Assembly (NCBI GenBank): GCA_017463155.1
Contig: JAFTPT010000042.1
Location: 1-64,000, forward strand
Length of the DNA: 64,000 bases
Source of the DNA: Blautia sp.
GTDB taxonomy: Bacteria; Bacillota; Clostridia; Lachnospirales; Lachnospiraceae
Reading direction: 5' to 3'
Both the position numbers and the translations under genes were made by a program. Below, piece after piece: positions 6,434 through 16,825 of the stretch. The first letter of the stretch is position 1. Each line of letters opens with the position of its first letter. The notes beneath the pieces were generated by a model. It was not told where the DNA came from. It saw nothing but the letters and a program-made list of their open reading frames with translations, and searched no databases.

Positions 6434-7384
6434 TCACAGAGCGTCGATATCCAGCTCCTGCAGGTACCGGGCCAGGGCATCCTTCCAGTCGGGAAGGGGA
6501 GTAAACCCTTTTTCGGTGATCCCGGAGCGGTCCAGACGGCTGTTGAAGGGACGGCAGGCTTTGGAGATGCCGTACTCCTCGGTCGTGACGGGCAGGACGG
6601 TAAGGTGCCCGGCCCCGTATTCCGGGTGGCCGAGAGCGGCGGCCTGCCGGAAGATCTCGCAGGCAAAATCGTACCAGCTGATGTAGCCGCCTTCATTGGT
6701 GACATGATAGCAGCCGTACCTGTCCGTTTCGATCATATCCACCAGAAGCCGCGCCAGATCCAGCGTGTATGTGGGCGTGCCGATCTGGTCGTTGACGACC
6801 CGGAGGGTATCGTGTTTCTTTCCGATCGTCAGCATCGTCCGGATAAAGTTTTTGCCGCTGAGCCCGAACACCCAGGCGATCCGTACGATAAAATGGCGCG
6901 GAACCAGTTCACGGACGGCCATTTCCCCGTCGAGCTTGGACTGCCCGTACACGTTCAGCGGGTTGTAATCGGTGCACTCCGGTTTCCAGGGAGTTTCGCC
7001 CTGTCCGTCAAAAATGTAATCCGTGCTGATGTAGACCATGGGACAGTCAAGGCGCCGGCAGGCCGCGGCGATGTTCCGCGTACCGTCCACATTGACAGCG
7101 CGTACCTTGGCATGATTCTCTTCATCCTCGGCCGCGTCGACGGCCGTCCAGGCAGCACAGTGGATCACTACGTCCGGTGCTTCGAGGAGGAGGACCTCCT
7201 CCGTCGCGGCCGCGTCCGTGATATCGAGAGAGACATAGGGGAGATGCGTGACGGCGGAACCGTCACTGATCCCGCTGTACGCAGGAGCCAGATCGGAACC
7301 GGTACAGCCGATCCCCCTCCGGTCCAGTTCATTCATCACATCGTGGCCCAGCTGACCGGCCACGCCTGTTACAAAAACCTTCAT
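6434..7384 (-). CDS. rfbD: dTDP-4-dehydrorhamnose reductase
   Basis: Last step of dTDP-L-rhamnose synthesis: NAD(P)H reduction of dTDP-4-keto-L-rhamnose. The 316-residue protein is longer than many homologues (about 280-300). It has the extended-SDR nucleotide site GVAGQLG at 7-13, the STDYIFDG block and the catalytic YGQSK. It is the last gene of the minus-strand operon rmlA-rmlB-rmlD, 12 bp after rmlB. Its epimerase partner RmlC is not encoded nearby. Confidence 0.93.
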   Translation of the reverse strand: MKVFVTGVAGQLGHDVMNELDRRGIGCTGSDLAPAYSGISDGSAVTHLPYVSLDITDAAATEEVLLLEAPDVVIHCAAWTAVDAAEDEENHAKVRAVNVDGTRNIAAACRRLDCPMVYISTDYIFDGQGETPWKPECTDYNPLNVYGQSKLDGEMAVRELVPRHFIVRIAWVFGLSGKNFIRTMLTIGKKHDTLRVVNDQIGTPTYTLDLARLLVDMIETDRYGCYHVTNEGGYISWYDFACEIFRQAAALGHPEYGAGHLTVLPVTTEEYGISKACRPFNSRLDRSGITEKGFTPLPDWKDALARYLQELDIDAL

Positions 7385-7396
7385 ATCATGTGCCCC

Positions 7397-8416
7397 CTAG
7401 CGGTTTCCATACATTTTTTCATAGTAGTTCTGGTATTCGCCGGAAATGATGGTTTCCCACCACTTCCTGTTGTCCAGGTACCACCGGATGGTCTTTTTGA
7501 TCCCGTCGGCGAATTTCGTCTCCGGGAGCCAGCCCAGTTCCTCGTGGATCTTCGTGGGATCGATGGCGTAGCGCATGTCGTGGCCCTTCCGGTCGGTCAC
7601 ATAGGTGATCAGGCTTTCGGGCTTTCCGAGCTCATGGCAGATGATCTTTACGATATCGATATTGCGCATTTCATTGTGCCCGCCGATATTGTACACTTCG
7701 CCGACCCTTCCTTTATGGATGATCAGGTCGATGGCCTTGCAGTGGTCTTCCACGTACAGCCAGTCACGGACGTTCTCACCCTTGCCGTAGACGGGCAGCG
7801 GTTTGTCGTTCAACGCGTTCGCGATCATGAGCGGGATCAGCTTTTCCGGAAAATGGTAAGGCCCGTAATTGTTGGAGCAGCGGCTGATGGAAACAGGCAG
7901 GCCGTAGGTCCGGTGATAGGCAAGGACGAGCAGGTCGGCGCCGGCCTTGGAGGAACTGTAGGGACTGCTGGTGTGGATGGGCGTTTCCTCGGTGAAGAAC
8001 AGGTCCGGCCGGTCCAGAGGAAGATCCCCGTACACCTCGTCGGTGGATACCTGGTGATAGCGCTGTATGCCGTATTTGCGGCACGCGTCCATGAGTACGG
8101 CGGTCCCTTTGATGTTGGTGTCCAGGAAGACCTCGGGGTTTTCAATCGAGCGGTCCACATGGCTTTCCGCCGCAAAGTTGACGACCATATCCGGGTGTTC
8201 TTCCTCAAAAAGACGATAGACCGCCTCCCTGTCCGTGATGTCAGCCTTGACAAAGCGGAAACGGGGATCCTCCATGACGGGGGCGAGGGTGCTCAGGTTG
8301 CCTGCATAGGTGAGGCAGTCCAGGCATACGATCCGGTACTCCGGATAGGCGTCCAGCATATGAAAAATAAAGTTGCTTCCGATAAAGCCGGCTCCGCCGG
8401 TAACGATGATGGTCAT
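7397..8416 (-). CDS. rfbB: dTDP-glucose 4,6-dehydratase
   Basis: Second step of dTDP-rhamnose synthesis, an NAD-dependent SDR enzyme. The 339-residue product starts MTIIVTGGAGFIGSNF, carries the STDEVYGDLP block with the Asp-Glu acid/base pair, and has the catalytic SPYSSSKAGAD. The frame is open for 18 more codons upstream, but ATG at 8416 is preceded by AAAAGGAG and gives the normal family N-terminus. Confidence 0.95.
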   Translation of the reverse strand: MTIIVTGGAGFIGSNFIFHMLDAYPEYRIVCLDCLTYAGNLSTLAPVMEDPRFRFVKADITDREAVYRLFEEEHPDMVVNFAAESHVDRSIENPEVFLDTNIKGTAVLMDACRKYGIQRYHQVSTDEVYGDLPLDRPDLFFTEETPIHTSSPYSSSKAGADLLVLAYHRTYGLPVSISRCSNNYGPYHFPEKLIPLMIANALNDKPLPVYGKGENVRDWLYVEDHCKAIDLIIHKGRVGEVYNIGGHNEMRNIDIVKIICHELGKPESLITYVTDRKGHDMRYAIDPTKIHEELGWLPETKFADGIKKTIRWYLDNRKWWETIISGEYQNYYEKMYGNR

Positions 8417-8432
8417 GTTTGTTTTCTCCTTT

Positions 8433-9329
8433 TCAGTGAAGAACGTCCATGTATTTGCCGTCCAGGACATCCTTCAGATATTGTCCGTACTGGTTCTTTT
8501 TCAGGATCTCATAGACGCTGAGTACGTCCTCGCGGGTGATCCACCCGTTCAGGTACGCGATCTCCTCCAGGCAGGCGATCTTCCGGTGCTGGTGCATCTC
8601 CATGGTCTTGACAAAGTTGGTTGCTTCCACGAGGCTTTCATGCGTACCGGTATCCAGCCAGGTAAAGCCCTGCCCCAGAAGCTCCACGTTCAGCTCCTGG
8701 TTTGTAAGGTAGATCCGGTTCAGGTCCGTGATCTCCAGCTCGCCCCTGGCGCTTGGCTTCAGCTCCTTTGCGTAGCGGACGACCCGGTTATCATAAAAGT
8801 AGAGGCCGGTGACGCAGTAGTTGCTCTTCGGATGCGCGGGCTTTTCTTCGATGGAGACGGCCTTTCCCTCCTTGTCGAATTCCACGATGCCGAACCGTTC
8901 CGGGTCATCCACGTAATAGCCGAATACGGTGGCTCCTTTGCCGGATTCCGCGTTGCTGACAGCCGCTTTCAGACGTTTCTTAAGGCCGTGTCCGGCAAAG
9001 ATGTTGTCGCCCAGGACCATGGCTACGGTGTCATCGCCGATGAAGTTTTCACCGATCAGGAAGGCCTGTGCCAGCCCGTCCGGGCTTGGCTGCACCTCAT
9101 AGGAGAGATGCACGCCGAACTGGTGGCCGTCGCCCAGAAGTTCACGGAAACGCGGCGTATCCTGCGGGGTCGAGATGATCAGGATCTCCCGGATCCCGGC
9201 GTTCATCAGCACAGACATGGGGTAGTAGATCATCGGCTTGTCATAGATGGGAAGAAGCTGCTTCGAGGTTACCATGGTCAGCGGGTAAAGACGTGTCCCG
9301 CTGCCGCCGGCTAATATGATCCCTTTCAT
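8433..9329 (-). CDS. rfbA: Glucose-1-phosphate thymidylyltransferase
   Basis: First step of dTDP-rhamnose synthesis, joining glucose-1-phosphate and dTTP. The 298-residue product has the nucleotidyltransferase signature [11 protein letters not shown] at 8-18, then the [17 protein letters not shown] block typical of RmlA, and the [12 protein letters not shown] metal site. It is the first gene of the rml operon, with a strong AAAGGAGGATCATT ribosome site. Its promoter upstream has the architecture of a MerR-activated promoter. Confidence 0.95.
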
Positions 9330-9373: not shown

Positions 9374-9404
9374 ATTATAAAAGGTGACCTAAGGTCACCT
9401 TCAA
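9374..9404 (-). promoter_or_regulatory. MerR-type promoter of rmlABD with palindromic operator in a 19-bp spacer
   Basis: Read on the minus strand, TTGAAG (9404-9399) and a consensus TATAAT (9379-9374) are separated by exactly 19 bp. The spacer is almost filled by a perfect palindrome, arms AAGGTGACC and GGTCACCTT at 9381-9401 around a 3-bp centre. A 19-bp spacer filled by a dyad is the hallmark of promoters untwisted by MerR-family activators. The gene directly upstream encodes a MerR-family protein, so it is the obvious candidate regulator. Confidence 0.8.
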
Positions 9405-9423
9405 GTACTTTTTTCAGTTTTTC

Positions 9424-10602
9424 TTATTCGCAGAGGAAAGCCCCGGCATCCTTGGTGATGAAAAAACCGGAAGCGGTCTTTCTGGCAGCGGCGGCGCGGA
9501 ATTCCTGGTACCGGTCGAGCAGGTACTGGTTCTGGTTGCCGTGACAGGAGAGAATGTAGGAGATGAGCGGCTGGGCTTCCGTTACGAGCAGGGAATCATC
9601 GTAGGAGACCCATTCCGTCTTCCGGAAGCAGGAGGACAGGATGCCGGCTCCGTTTTCACGTCCGAACCGGTCATAAAGCTGCTCTTTGGAAAGCATGATC
9701 CGTTCGTCAAATTCCTGCACGAACCGGCTGATCTCCTGCATATGCTCTTTTCCGTAGGCACTTGCGACCAACCGGCCGCCGTCCTTCAGCACCCGGCGGA
9801 TCTCCCGGCAGGCGGCTTCAATGTCGTCACAGTAGAAGAGTACATGATTTGCCGTGACGAGATCGAAGGAGTTATCAGGGTAGGGGATGCGGGCACAGTC
9901 GAATTCCCGGAAGGTAAACCGACTGTCGTCACTTCCGATCCTGCGGCGGGCATCCCTTAGCATGCCCGGTGATGTATCGGAGAGAACGATGTCGATCCGG
10001 CTGGGGACCTTTGGGAGATTCTGGGTCCAGAGGGCACCGTCGCCGCAGCCCACCTCCAGGATGCGCATGCCGTCCCTGAGCCCGAGAAGGCCGAACAGCC
10101 AGGGAAACCATCCCAGCTGGTTCTGCGAGTACAGGCGGTGGAGCTGTATGCGGGCCGATATGTTGGAGGCGTCCCGGTACTGGCGCTCCAGACTGTTTTC
10201 CATGCCCGTCAGATGGATCAGCGTCCGCATGTGGTCCCAGTCGACGTGGTGCTGGTCACGAAGAGCGGCCCTGGTGTCGCGGATCGCCTGCTCCACCAGC
10301 TGCATCTGCTCGATCCGGTCCTGCACGAGCTTCTGCTGGATACGGAGGGAGTCCAGCAGGAAATGGTAATCCGGATCGCCGATGGTCATGGTCCGGATCT
10401 CATCCAGGGAGAAGCCCAGATATTTGAGCAGAAGGATCTGCTGGAGCCTTGCAAAATCGGCGTCGGTATAGAAACGGGCGCCGGAAGCCGTGACATAGGA
10501 GGGCTTCAGGATATTTTTTTTATCGTAATAGCGGATCGTCCGCAGGGTGACATGCGCCATCCTGGCGAACTGTCCCGAGGAATAGTAGCCTTCTTTTTTC
10601 AT
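9424..10602 (-). CDS. MerR-family regulator fused to a class I SAM methyltransferase
   Basis: Two-domain protein of 392 residues. The N-terminus is a MerR winged helix (YSSGQFARMAHVTLRTIRYYDKK at about 7-29, wing to 50, LGFSLDEI near 62-69), followed by a dimerising helix (about 80-118). Residues from about 150 form a class I methyltransferase with motif I ILEVGCGDGA (181-190), IVLSDTSPGM and the post-motif PDNSFDLVTANHVLFYCDD. The sensing domain of a MerR protein is thus replaced by an enzyme fold. ATG 10602 is chosen over 10758 because CCGGAGGACTT stands before it and the HTH begins here. The rmlA promoter downstream carries a matching MerR-type operator. Substrate or effector is unknown. 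Confidence 0.85.
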   Translation of the reverse strand: MKKEGYYSSGQFARMAHVTLRTIRYYDKKNILKPSYVTASGARFYTDADFARLQQILLLKYLGFSLDEIRTMTIGDPDYHFLLDSLRIQQKLVQDRIEQMQLVEQAIRDTRAALRDQHHVDWDHMRTLIHLTGMENSLERQYRDASNISARIQLHRLYSQNQLGWFPWLFGLLGLRDGMRILEVGCGDGALWTQNLPKVPSRIDIVLSDTSPGMLRDARRRIGSDDSRFTFREFDCARIPYPDNSFDLVTANHVLFYCDDIEAACREIRRVLKDGGRLVASAYGKEHMQEISRFVQEFDERIMLSKEQLYDRFGRENGAGILSSCFRKTEWVSYDDSLLVTEAQPLISYILSCHGNQNQYLLDRYQEFRAAAARKTASGFFITKDAGAFLCE

Positions 10603-10634: not shown

Positions 10635-10662
10635 AGTATACCATGAGATGTCCCAAACACAA
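10635..10662 (-). promoter_or_regulatory. Probable promoter of the MerR-methyltransferase gene
   Basis: On the minus strand TTGTGT (10662-10657) and TATACT (10640-10635) stand 16 bp apart, about 33 bp before the start codon. The divergent small membrane protein gene begins on the other side, so the intergenic space is shared. Confidence 0.4.
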
Positions 10663-11341: not shown

Positions 11342-11402
11342 CAGCCAGCGCAGGATGTACGCTGCTGTAAAGATATTATTTTTCAAAAAGGAGAGTGGAA
11401 CT

Positions 11403-12644
11403 ATGGGACTTATCAGAGCAGGTGTTTCAGCCGTAACAAGTACGATCGGAGATCTCTGGAAAGAGTATTTTTACTGTGATGCACTGGACAATGATGTGCT
11501 GGTCGTAAAAGGACGCAAGAAAACAGGCCATAACATGGGCAGCGACAACGTGATCACCAACGGATCCGGGATCGTGGTCGCCGATGGACAGTGTATGATC
11601 ATCGTAGAGCAGGGCAAGATCGTCGAGGTCTGTGCGGAGCCGGGTGAGTTCACCTACGACACCTCCTCGGAGCCCAGTGTATTCGGCGGCAGCCTGTCCG
11701 AAAGCATCGCGAAGACCTTTGAGATCATCGGCAAGCGCTTCACCTACGGCGGCGACGCGGCCATGGACCAGAGAGTCTATTATTTCAACACCAAGGAACT
11801 GATGGGCAACAAATTCGGCACCGCCAATCCCATCCCCTTCCGTGTGACCGACCAGAGGATCGGCCTGGATGTGGACGTATCGGTCCGCTGCAACGGAACC
11901 TATTCCTACAGGATCGCGGATCCGCTGCTTTTCTACGCGAATGTCTGCGGCAATGTGGCACAGGCCTATGTCCGGAGCGACATCGATATGACGCTTCGTT
12001 CCGAGTTCGTCAGCGCCCTGCAGCCGGCGTTTGCCGAGCTTTCCCATGTCGGCCTTCGCCCGAGTGATCTTCCCGCGCATGTGGGTGAGCTCTGCCAGGC
12101 TATGAACAGTGCACTGACCCGGAAATGGGGCGAGCTGCGGGGCCTGGAGATCGTCTCCATCGCGATCAATTCCGTGACGCTTCCCGAGGAAGACGCCAAT
12201 ATGATCAAGGACGCCCAGAAGAACGCGATGTATCGTGATCCCGGCATGGCGGCGGCGATGCTGGCGGGAGCCCAGGCAGACGCCATGAAGGCAGCCGCGT
12301 CCAACGCGAACGGTGCCATGGCCGGCTTCATGGGAATGGGCATGGCGCAGCAGGCCGGCGGCGTCAATGTACAGAATCTCTATGCGATGGGCGCTCAGCA
12401 GCAACAGCAGGCAGCCCAGACCCAGGCCGCGCAGGCACAGCCGGCGGCAGACACCTGGACCTGCTCCTGCGGTTCCGTAAACAAGGGCAAATTCTGCCCG
12501 GAATGCGGCCAGCCGAAACCGGCAGCTTCGGCCATCACCTACCGCTGCAGCAAGTGCGGATGGGTGCCGGATGATCCTGCCAATCCGCCCAAATTCTGCC
12601 CGGAGTGCGGAGATCCCATCAACTATGAGGATGTTGTCAAGTAA
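11403..12644 (+). CDS. SPFH-domain protein with C-terminal zinc ribbons (YdjI-like)
   Basis: SPFH (stomatin/flotillin-like) proteins assemble at membranes. The 413-residue product has the compact SPFH type found in Bacillus YdjI (about 20-290: GQCMIIVEQGKIVEVCAEPG, then RVYYFNTKELMGNKFGT), a Gln/Ala-rich linker (about 330-355) and two zinc ribbons at the end (CSCGS...CPECGQ and CSKCGW...CPECGD). The 48-bp gap to the next gene and the zinc-ribbon and TPM genes that follow match the B. subtilis ydjGHI set, which acts with the PspA homologue YdjF in membrane stress. No PspA gene is present in this window. Confidence 0.85.
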   Translation: MGLIRAGVSAVTSTIGDLWKEYFYCDALDNDVLVVKGRKKTGHNMGSDNVITNGSGIVVADGQCMIIVEQGKIVEVCAEPGEFTYDTSSEPSVFGGSLSESIAKTFEIIGKRFTYGGDAAMDQRVYYFNTKELMGNKFGTANPIPFRVTDQRIGLDVDVSVRCNGTYSYRIADPLLFYANVCGNVAQAYVRSDIDMTLRSEFVSALQPAFAELSHVGLRPSDLPAHVGELCQAMNSALTRKWGELRGLEIVSIAINSVTLPEEDANMIKDAQKNAMYRDPGMAAAMLAGAQADAMKAAASNANGAMAGFMGMGMAQQAGGVNVQNLYAMGAQQQQQAAQTQAAQAQPAADTWTCSCGSVNKGKFCPECGQPKPAASAITYRCSKCGWVPDDPANPPKFCPECGDPINYEDVVK

Positions 12645-12692
12645 GGAGCGGCAGGCTGTTTTTACGGACTGCGACAAGGAGGCTGATTCGGA

Positions 12693-13778
12693 ATGGCACA
12701 GGTGAGGGAATACAAATGCCCATCCTGCGGAGGTACGCTGGAATTCAGCAGCACGATCCAGAAGATGAAATGCAGCTACTGCGGCACGGAGCTGGAAGTA
12801 GAGGCACTGGAAGCGCTGAACGCCCAGATGCAGAGCGAGCGGCCGGACGAGATGAACTGGGGCGAGGAAGAGAACCAGAACGGCTCCTGGCAGGAGGGGG
12901 AACAGGAGGAAATGCGGGTCTATGTCTGCAATTCCTGCGGCGGAGAACTGATGACGGATTCGACGACAGCCGCCACATCCTGCCCTTACTGCGGCAATCC
13001 GGTGGTACTTACCGACCGGGTCGGGGGAACACTCCGTCCGGATTACGTGATCCCCTTCAAGCTTGACAAGGAGGCGGCCAAGGCAGCCTATAAGAAGCAC
13101 CTGCAGGGCAAGATCCTGCTTCCGCGGATGTTCCATGACGAGAACCATATCGATGAGATCAAGGGCGTCTATGTGCCTTACTGGATCTTTAACGCGGACG
13201 CGGATGCGACGATCCGCTATAACGGGACCAAAAAGGCTGTCTGGGACAGCGGGGATTTTGTCTATACCCGGACGAGCGTGTACTCGATCTTCCGGGAGGG
13301 CTCGATTCGGTTCGAGCATGTGCCGGTGGACGGCTCCTCCAAGATCGCCGATGATCTGCTGGAGTCCATTGAACCCTTTGATTTTTCGGAAGCGGTGGAT
13401 TTCCGGATGGCGTATCTTTCCGGATACCTTGCCGACCGGTATGACATTTCCGTGAAGGACAGCATCGACCGGGCCAACTCCCGTATCAAGAGGAGCACGG
13501 AGGACTGCTTTGAAAGCACCGTGTCCGGGTACCAGGACCTGCAGATCGCGAGGAGCAATGTGCGGCTTCACAACGGCTCCTACCAGTACGCGCTGTATCC
13601 GGTATGGCTTCTGAATACCACCTGGCGTGGGCAGAATTTCATTTTTGCCATGAACGGACAGACAGGGCGGATGGTCGGCGACCTGCCGGCGGATACAAAG
13701 AAACTGACATTCTGGCAGCTGGGGATGACGGCGGTGTTTTCGGTGATCGCCTTTCTCATCGTACGGCTGTTGTTCTAG
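12693..13778 (+). CDS. Zinc-ribbon membrane protein (YdjG-like)
   Basis: The 361-residue protein starts with two zinc ribbons: CPSCGG...CSYCGT (about 8-31) and CNSCGG...CPYCGN (about 77-103). A globular domain follows (about 115-330, VKGVYVPYWIFNADADATI and YALYPVWLLNT), then one C-terminal transmembrane helix (about 340-361) ending almost at the stop, as in tail-anchored proteins. Organisation matches B. subtilis YdjG, called a TFIIB-type zinc-finger protein. It lies between the SPFH and TPM genes. The ribbons probably mediate protein contacts; no enzyme motif is seen. Confidence 0.8.
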   Translation: MAQVREYKCPSCGGTLEFSSTIQKMKCSYCGTELEVEALEALNAQMQSERPDEMNWGEEENQNGSWQEGEQEEMRVYVCNSCGGELMTDSTTAATSCPYCGNPVVLTDRVGGTLRPDYVIPFKLDKEAAKAAYKKHLQGKILLPRMFHDENHIDEIKGVYVPYWIFNADADATIRYNGTKKAVWDSGDFVYTRTSVYSIFREGSIRFEHVPVDGSSKIADDLLESIEPFDFSEAVDFRMAYLSGYLADRYDISVKDSIDRANSRIKRSTEDCFESTVSGYQDLQIARSNVRLHNGSYQYALYPVWLLNTTWRGQNFIFAMNGQTGRMVGDLPADTKKLTFWQLGMTAVFSVIAFLIVRLLF

Positions 13779-14686: not shown

Positions 14687-15448
14687 TTGAAGATCGGAGA
14701 CATCCTGACACAGGTAAAAGAAGGCAGTCTGACCGTCGATGAGGCGGAAAGGATCCTCCGGAAAGAATCCTACGAGGAGATGGGCTTTGCAAAGCTGGAC
14801 ACGGGACGGAAAGCCCGCACCGGGTTTGCCGAGGTGGTCTACTGCAGGAGCAAGGCGGATGATTTTCTGCTGCAGATCTACGAGCGTCTGTATGAGCAGA
14901 ACGGAGAAGTATTCGGGACCAGGGCAACGGAGCATCAGTATGAACTGCTCCGGGCGCACTTTCCGGGAATCGTTTATGACCCGGTATCCGGTATCCTGAA
15001 GATCGACCCCGAAACGCCAAGGACGCTGTCGGGAAGGGTCGCGGTCTGCACGGCCGGGACGGCCGACATCGGAGTCGCGGAGGAGGCGGCCCAGACGGCC
15101 GAGTATTTCGGAACCTATGTGGAACGGATCTATGACATCGGTGTCAGCGGGATGCACAGGCTTTTTTCCAAGGTGGAGAGCCTTGAGCAGGCAAACTGCA
15201 TCGTGGCGGTGGCCGGGATGGAGGGGGCGCTGCCCAGTGTCCTCGGCGGTCTCACGAGCAGGCCGATCATCGCCGTACCGACCTCGGTCGGTTATGGCGC
15301 TAATTTCCACGGGCTGTCAGCACTTCTGACCATGATCAATTCCTGTGCGAACGGGATCGCCGTTGTCAATATCGATAACGGGTACGGCGCCGGCTATATG
15401 GCGACCCAGATCAACCGGCTGGCACTGGGAGCAGGCTTTACAGAATGA
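14687..15448 (+). CDS. larB: LarB, nickel-pincer cofactor biosynthesis carboxylase
   Basis: LarB carboxylates and hydrolyses nicotinic acid adenine dinucleotide, the first step toward the nickel-pincer cofactor of lactate racemase and related enzymes. The 253-residue protein carries the PurE-like core (AVCTAGTADIGVAEEAA near 122-138; GVSGMHRLF; AGMEGALPSVLGGL near 176-190; PTSVGYGA). The start is TTG at 14687, the only start with a correctly spaced ribosome site (GGAGG at 14674-14678). larC follows by 18 bp. The LarE sulfur transferase and a LarA-type enzyme are not in this window. Confidence 0.93.
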   Translation: MKIGDILTQVKEGSLTVDEAERILRKESYEEMGFAKLDTGRKARTGFAEVVYCRSKADDFLLQIYERLYEQNGEVFGTRATEHQYELLRAHFPGIVYDPVSGILKIDPETPRTLSGRVAVCTAGTADIGVAEEAAQTAEYFGTYVERIYDIGVSGMHRLFSKVESLEQANCIVAVAGMEGALPSVLGGLTSRPIIAVPTSVGYGANFHGLSALLTMINSCANGIAVVNIDNGYGAGYMATQINRLALGAGFTE

Positions 15449-15466
15449 AAGGGTATTGACCGGAAA

Positions 15467-16825
15467 ATGAAAGAAAAACTATATCTGGAATGCAGCTCGG
15501 GGATCAGCGGGGATATGTTTGTGGCAGCACTGCTCGATCTGGGAGCTGATCAGCAGAAGCTTCTGAAGGTGCTTGCTTCCTTACCGCTTGACGGGTATCA
15601 GGTGAAGATCAGCCGGGTCCTGAAATCGGGGATCGACGCCTGTGATTTCGATGTGATCCTGGACCGGGAGCATGAGAACCATGACCATGACATGGAATAC
15701 CTGCATGGAGTCGGCCCGGCCTCCCATGGCACACATGAACAGGACGATGCAGAGCATCATGAGCATTCTCACGAGCACCATCATGCGCATGATCATGCGC
15801 ATCCTCACGGGCACAGTCATGAGCATCCTCATGAACATCCTCACGAGCACAGGGGACTAGCCGAGATCACCGCGATCATTGACGCCGGTGAGATGACGGA
15901 CGGAGCGCGCGCCCTCGCGCACAGGATCTTCCGGATCATCGCGGAGGCGGAGGGGAAAGCCCATCATCTGCCTACGGAGGAGGTTCATTTCCATGAGGTG
16001 GGCGCCGTCGATTCCATCGTGGATATCGTATCGGCCGCCGTTTGCCTGGATGACCTTGGCTTTACGGAGGTGATCATTCCGGAGCTTTCTGAAGGGACAG
16101 GTACGGTGCGCTGCCAGCATGGCGTGCTTCCGGTTCCGGTTCCGGCCGTGACGAACGTGATCGAGGCGTACGGGATCCCCCTTCGCATCACATCTGTCCG
16201 CGGCGAGCTGGTCACGCCGACGGGAGCAGCGATCGCGGCGGCGATCCGGACAGGCAGCAGGCTGCCGGAGACGTTCAGCATCCTGAAAACAGGGATCGGT
16301 GCGGGCAAAAGGCAGTATGAGTGCCCGGGGATCCTGCGTGCCATGTGCATTCAGGACCGCGTGGAGGAGGAGACCAGGGTCACCCGGCTGGAGACGAACA
16401 TTGATGACTGCACGGGCGAGGAACTCGGCTATGTCATGGAGCTTTTGTTCGCGGCCGGGGCGAGGGATGTCTTTTATACGCCGATCTACATGAAAAAGAA
16501 CCGCCCGGCGTGCCTTCTCAGCGTGATCTGCATGGAGAAAGACCGGGAAAAGCTCGAAAAGATCATTTTCCGGGAGACGACGACCATCGGGATTCGAAGG
16601 AACTCCATGGAAAGGACCGTGCTGGAGCGCCGGATCCTGCGCGTGGAGACACCGTGGGGGATGGCTCGTGTCAAGGCGTGTACGCTGGACGGTATGGAGA
16701 AGTATTATCCGGAGTTTGACAGTGTAAAGGAGCTGGCCGATGCAGGAGGTCTGCCGCTGCGGGACGTGTACCAGCTGGTTCACCGGACCGCCCTTCTGAA
16801 ATACGGAACGGTCTGCGGGAAATGA
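15467..16825 (+). CDS. larC: LarC, nickel insertion protein for the nickel-pincer cofactor
   Basis: CTP-dependent nickel insertase completing the pincer cofactor. It is one intact 452-residue frame, whereas in Lactiplantibacillus plantarum larC is read through a programmed frameshift (LarC1/LarC2). The N-terminal part has LECSSGISGDMFVAALLDLGA. A His/Glu/Asp-rich stretch (about 66-127) is a plausible nickel-buffering insertion. The later HFHEVGAVDSIVDI block, the PTGAAI segment and TRLETNIDDCTGEELGYVMELLFAAGARDVF complete the family pattern. It is coupled to larB. Confidence 0.94.
   Translation: MKEKLYLECSSGISGDMFVAALLDLGADQQKLLKVLASLPLDGYQVKISRVLKSGIDACDFDVILDREHENHDHDMEYLHGVGPASHGTHEQDDAEHHEHSHEHHHAHDHAHPHGHSHEHPHEHPHEHRGLAEITAIIDAGEMTDGARALAHRIFRIIAEAEGKAHHLPTEEVHFHEVGAVDSIVDIVSAAVCLDDLGFTEVIIPELSEGTGTVRCQHGVLPVPVPAVTNVIEAYGIPLRITSVRGELVTPTGAAIAAAIRTGSRLPETFSILKTGIGAGKRQYECPGILRAMCIQDRVEEETRVTRLETNIDDCTGEELGYVMELLFAAGARDVFYTPIYMKKNRPACLLSVICMEKDREKLEKIIFRETTTIGIRRNSMERTVLERRILRVETPWGMARVKACTLDGMEKYYPEFDSVKELADAGGLPLRDVYQLVHRTALLKYGTVCGK
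15670..15860 (+). repeat. His-rich low-complexity segment within larC
   Basis: CAC/CAT-dense tract encoding alternating His with Glu, Asp, Ala and Pro (HEHSHEHHHAHDHAHPHG and similar). Best read as a metal-binding linker within LarC, not a mobile or CRISPR-like repeat. Confidence 0.8.

Follow-up and report, generated by a model that had tools for sequence, protein, structure and literature searches.

The DNA analyzed here, a 64,000-nt stretch of a Blautia sp. contig that we refer to as the window, carries on its minus strand a gene (9424..10602; 392 amino acids plus stop) for a MerR-class I methyltransferase fusion. The MerR-type winged helix-turn-helix at the N-terminus (residues 7-72; 10387..10584) was confirmed by Pfam (MerR_1, PF13411, 4.4e-18), its profile matches in the PDB included 3hh0, 1jbg, 2vz4, and BmrR, and residues 11-70 had block-mean pLDDT values of 76-92 in an AlphaFold2 model. 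A long helix assigned by DSSP on that model (residues 79-116; 10255..10368) occupies the place of the MerR dimerization coiled coil, with block-mean pLDDT values of 63-70 in what is a monomer model. Residues 133-392 (9427..10206) make up a class I SAM-methyltransferase module including an N-terminal cap, within which Pfam placed Methyltransf_11 at residues 182-279; the class I fold and the SAM-binding motif are both present. The model and a fold search likewise gave a helix-turn-helix, a long helix, and a class I methyltransferase, and the fusion described in an initial annotation of this DNA was thus borne out. No MerR-methyltransferase chain appeared among the listed matches to solved structures (best 60 of 92 by sequence and best 50 by fold). 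A tentative promoter of the fusion gene itself, TTGTGT-16-TATACT without a dyad (10635..10662, minus strand), was picked out by eye and is absent from the list of the promoter scan. Beside the fusion, at 11355-13778 of the window, lie two consecutive ORFs with zinc-ribbon-like cysteine pairs, and at 14687-16825 two ORFs whose products resemble LarB and LarC, known from lactate racemase cofactor genes.

Directly 3' of the fusion stop codon, also on the minus strand, is a promoter with the -35 element TTGAAG (9399..9404), a 19-bp spacer (9380..9398), and the -10 element TATAAT (9374..9379), the last of these 44 nt from the rmlA start. The putative operator, a perfect 21-bp dyad AAGGTGACCTTAGGTCACCTT (9381..9401), reads AAGGTGACC-TTA-GGTCACCTT from 9401 to 9381 and overlaps the -35 element by that element's final 3 nt. 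Both this TTGAAG-19 bp-TATAAT arrangement with its perfect palindrome (9404-9374) and its position ahead of rmlA, rmlB, and rmlD had been noted in the initial annotation, and both hold. All three gene products exceeded the cut-offs of NCBIfam equivalogs: RmlA, glucose-1-phosphate thymidylyltransferase (8433..9329; TIGR01207, 477 bits, cut-off 361), RmlB, dTDP-glucose 4,6-dehydratase (7397..8470, the start possibly being a later ATG; TIGR01181, 492 bits, cut-off 365), and RmlD, dTDP-4-dehydrorhamnose reductase (6434..7384; TIGR01214, 282 bits, cut-off 224), all encoded on the minus strand. With up to three mismatches, the dyad occurred once in the window against 0.01 occurrences expected from shuffles; given this expectation and the absence of the dyad at 27 control rmlA loci (see below), a chance palindrome was rejected.

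The perfect 17-nt core of the dyad was found only at this site in the whole 3.07-Mb genome, and cores with one or two mismatches were found at seven other places. Three of these seven, including the one with a single mismatch, were inspected and lie inside long open frames without promoter consensus. A wide regulon was rejected, since these three matches lack promoter elements and each of the 26 genomes that match the site pattern (up to three mismatches) holds one site. The rml operon of the window lacks rmlC, and two rmlC matches were found elsewhere in the genome (G000:C8 and G000:C50), one beside genes that by eye resemble an ABC exporter. The other adjoins an rmlD-like gene and has a second rmlA at a distance of about 2.3 kb. 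As no site was found within 1.5 kb of either, rmlC was rejected as a second target. The genome thus holds a second rml set (rmlA, rmlC, and the rmlD-like gene) at G000:C50:109288-113038.

In order to follow the pairing of regulator and site, we screened 299 family genomes, the window's own included, for the fusion and for the site, the latter as a pattern of 32 nt of promoter and dyad with at most three mismatches. An orthologue of the fusion (at least 45% identity) was identified in 44 of the 299, in two of them fragmented or at a contig end. The site pattern matched in 26 genomes, once in each, and all 26 are among the 44 fusion genomes, with no match in the 255 genomes without the fusion and none in any of the 299 for a reversed-pattern control (Fisher 5e-26, a value that ignores the relatedness of the genomes and so is not a strict probability). 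Sixteen of the other 18 fusion genomes have, within the DNA retrieved around the fusion, a weaker site (19-23 of 27) before rml or before the fusion; in L088 the weaker site lies about 600 nt before rmlB. In G266 such a weaker site precedes an rmlA on another contig, and a second weak match there has no rml beside it, while no site was found in G174, which carries the fusion in an assembly 76% complete.

The same pairing extends to named relatives, for which we took the best 80 listed, mostly Lachnospiraceae but also Lactobacillus, Lactimicrobium, Thomasclavelia, and Clostridium zeae. Of these, 57 have the site ahead of an rml gene, nine ahead of the fusion, and three ahead of some other gene or of a contig end; it was not found in the remaining 11, none of which has rml in the stretch of DNA examined. 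All 65 of the named loci that bear rml have the site before rml or before the fusion within that stretch. A genome-wide search for ten of the 11 siteless loci (L186 left out) located the site elsewhere in six, in each case before an rmlA away from the fusion (G299, G300, G302, G304, G305, and G309), and located none in G301, G303, G307, and G308. With G266, seven genomes therefore carry the site in front of an rmlA outside the neighborhood of the fusion, the true distance between the two being uncertain because several of the fusions are on short contigs. The initial annotation had counted homologues of the fusion without an operator nearby as evidence against the pairing. Such homologues do occur; seven of these genomes carry the site before an rmlA elsewhere, in keeping with the pairing, and at least five fusion genomes (G174, G301, G303, G307, and G308) gave no site at all, which counts against it. 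The pairing with the site is also kept where fusion and rml point away from each other (L087), where some 11 kb lie between them (L062), and in autoregulated layouts, whereas the paralogues L105-L107 (about 32% identity) have neither rml nor such a site.

At two loci the operator precedes genes other than rml, which, like the second weak match in G266, speaks against the fusion being a dedicated rml regulator. In Butyrivibrio sp. NC2002 (L160:5197-5969) the operator faces an HD-domain gene and not rml. At L171:3020-3051 an operator of GTGCC type has no rml in the next 6 kb, and the reading of the fusion there contains a stop. Genome G127 holds a second fusion (L103:8401-10763), 39% identical and with the motif SCHGNQ, just downstream of another dTDP-glucose dehydratase gene.

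Examination of rmlA genes gave a complementary view. Among the best 30 rmlA matches, the site lies within 300 bp in all 23 that come from fusion loci or from genomes containing the rml locus of the fusion, and in none of the remaining seven; the twenty rmlA loci that follow in this ranking among genomes lacking the fusion have no site either. These 27 controls, one of which (L201) is an additional rmlA of a fusion-bearing genome, scored 13-16 of 27, and the 23 linked loci scored 23-27. When the controls were scanned generically for dyads of any kind inside a spacer of 19-20 bp, 24 gave no match and the other three gave weak dyads (4-6 of 10 pairs).

To characterize the site itself we compared 103 distinct sites from 128 loci (the window, L061-L107, and L115-L194), duplicates and loci below 19 of 27 having been dropped, with L154, L167, and L187 exempted from this threshold by name. 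A spacing of 19 nt was the sole best in 86 of the 103 and among the best in 101, counts that are partly circular because the sites were gathered with patterns fixed at 19. Complementarity of paired dyad columns exceeded that expected from independent columns at 11/19 (98 of 103 against 75), 13/17 (72 against 50), and 6/24 (65 against 44), while the outer pairs do not covary (columns 8/22, 55 against 59). These sites bear on the idea that the fusion is a plain rml repressor, in which SAM would have a structural role and the signal would act at another point. A dyad between the -35 and -10 elements would repress as well, but the 19-bp spacing and near-consensus hexamers, kept in most of the 103 sites, would be needless for a pure repressor, and we regard this idea as improbable.

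The recognition helix and the operator also correspond. Where the helix reads TKKT in place of TxRT, the operator is of the type GTGCC...GGCAC in 14 of 15 cases, against 0 of 88; the exception (L181:7349-7380) combines a TKKT-type helix with a GTGAC-type operator. All 17 TKKT rows fall into one clade of a quick tree of 78 rows, which suggests that the helix changed once, together with the operator. This would be one telling event, and the Fisher value of 2e-16 for the correspondence does not stand for many events because the tree has a single helix change; repeated independent coevolution was rejected for the same reason. These results leave very little room for the proposal that some other MerR protein uses the palindrome and that the fusion is a mere neighbor. 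Nothing specific speaks for it beyond the general resemblance of MerR operators to one another, whereas site and fusion co-occur even when apart and in divergent and distant layouts, the site is missing where the fusion is missing, and the helix of the fusion changes together with the operator. Taken together, the comparison shows that this clade of proteins pairs with this operator, with the rml genes as its predicted targets even where rml and fusion are apart. The co-occurrence, the sites before rmlA genes elsewhere, the controls, and the one concerted change of helix and operator give strong comparative support to the initial claim that the fusion acts on rml through this operator.

MerR regulators sit in an over-long spacer, silence the promoter, and upon a signal twist the DNA into a form usable by polymerase, as described in PMC9909328 and PMC1526738, and the sequence evidence fits this mechanism for rml. 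By analogy with that family, a dimer of the fusion would bind the dyad between the -35 and -10 elements and hold the over-long rmlA promoter inactive, until a change in the methyltransferase domain twists the DNA and allows RNA polymerase to open the promoter, leading to more dTDP-rhamnose synthesis. We put the probability at roughly 85% that the fusion is such a dedicated MerR-type regulator of the rml operon. More tentatively, that domain could serve as the sensor for SAM or SAH together with a small molecule specific to the pathway, in a pocket that would include the motif SCHGNQ (residues 352-357; 9532..9549, minus strand), and it may or may not still methylate. Candidate signals are SAM/SAH alone, a metabolite of the rhamnose pathway with SAM, or substrate turnover; the earlier suggestion that SAM or the methylation substrate is the signal stays a conjecture.

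Two alignments bear upon the pocket, one of 29 rows (A1) chosen from fusions fetched by a whole-protein search, and one (A2) in which the window is aligned with 69 of the 80 named loci, from which L189 (stop codon) and L120, L125, L164, L171, L174, L177, L181, L186, L191, and L193 are absent. The SAM-site positions E183, G185, G187, and D209 are invariant across 70 aligned rows. SCHGNQ is invariant in the aligned rml-linked rows, although the invariance of SCHGN is biased in A2, and less so in A1, because the peptide patterns used for finding loci included SCHGN. The motif, presumably a substrate lid, marks the rml clade and is absent from all ten stand-alone relatives whose alignment reached it. 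Likewise, all 13 stand-alone relatives have LYHV where the rml clade has LFYC, a change that may reflect altered or lost catalysis. The fold search among solved structures named no substrate because many small-molecule methyltransferases score close together. On these observations turns the alternative that the fusion is a trigger enzyme, turning over a real substrate so that its loaded or product-bound state sets the promoter. The invariant SAM-site residues, the full class I fold close to TmtA, GtmA, and OxaG, and the existence of stand-alone relatives of the same module are in its favor, whereas LFYC and the clade-specific SCHGNQ suggest a pocket remodeled away from those relatives; we consider it unlikely, if still a serious contender, and prefer the ligand-sensing regulator set out above.

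More distant MerR-methyltransferase fusions (L282-L291; 35-41% identity), from other families of the class, have other neighbors. In eight of them (L282, L283, L285, L286, and L288-L291) the fusion precedes two DegT/DnrJ/EryC1-like aminotransferases, called by Pfam in L282 and L283 and by N-terminal sequence in the other six, which form a candidate regulated amino-sugar pair. In the other two (L284:7389-12205 and L287:7099-10875) the fusion lies directly upstream of arginine deiminase, joined in L284 by ornithine carbamoyltransferase and carbamate kinase, and a 19-bp-spacer dyad precedes the regulator. The generic scan placed such a dyad promoter before the fusion's own start in six of the ten, and a pattern scan gave every one of the ten a candidate promoter, 49-75 bp ahead of the start (scores 22-31 of 32), though two of its four patterns derive from loci that were themselves scanned. 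At the position corresponding to SCHGNQ, six of the eight proteins from aminotransferase loci have SMPGN, L288 and L291 being the exceptions, and the two from arginine deiminase loci have SIPGN. Among ten fusions that are paralogous or yet more distant (L105-L114), five (L105, L107, L109, L112, and L113) have a dyad promoter before themselves. On the simplest history, the ancestor would have been a MerR-methyltransferase that regulated its own gene, and different operons would then have recruited its various clades; in the rml clade the site would have been moved to lie between fusion and rml, or have stayed in front of an operon of fusion and rml. At somewhat less than even odds, MerR-methyltransferases of Clostridia and relatives may be metabolite switches in which the methyltransferase pocket is an exchangeable sensor, the clade motifs SCHGNQ, SMPGN, and SIPGN being tuned to the metabolite of the operon (dTDP-rhamnose, amino-sugar formation, and arginine deiminase, respectively) and the rml clade reading SAM/SAH and a ligand of the rhamnose pathway. 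If true, the rml clade would tie a surface sugar to the one-carbon state of the cell.

Literature searches on the fusion, on MerR with rml, on rml regulation, and on the wider family, which covered titles and the start of abstracts and for the most part papers outside subscription, returned no description of this system; the architecture may be listed in domain databases. Our analysis names a probable regulator with its operator and targets for organisms such as Blautia wexlerae, Anaerostipes, Lacrimispora, and Lactobacillus, would extend the range of MerR-family sensor domains by a methyltransferase fold, and would raise the question of how an enzyme pocket signals to a DNA-binding domain that twists promoters.

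Like MerR, CueR, BmrR, Mta, and TipA, the fusion has an N-terminal winged helix-turn-helix followed by a long helix. Sensor domains known in this family include the metal loop, the GyrI-like domain, and TipAS; the C-terminal domain of the fusion is none of these but a class I methyltransferase, and the predicted target of the fusion is sugar-nucleotide synthesis, not resistance. The dyad inside a 19-20-bp spacer, in contrast, is shared with such activators (PMC9909328 and PMC1526738). Compared with the class I small-molecule methyltransferases TmtA (5egp), GtmA (5jgk), OxaG (5w7k), and YcgJ (1xxl), to which it is 14-17% identical, the fusion adds a DNA-binding domain. Trigger enzymes and enzyme-fused regulators include BirA, PutA, and NadR. 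These also combine an enzyme fold and a DNA-binding part in one chain, but their folds are different, and the fusion is a putative enzyme. Its closest counterparts in architecture are the other MerR-methyltransferases (L282-L291 and L105-L114), many of which have a 19-bp-spacer dyad before their own gene, and which differ from the rml clade in identity (24-41%) and in having aminotransferases, arginine deiminase genes, or unrelated genes as neighbors.
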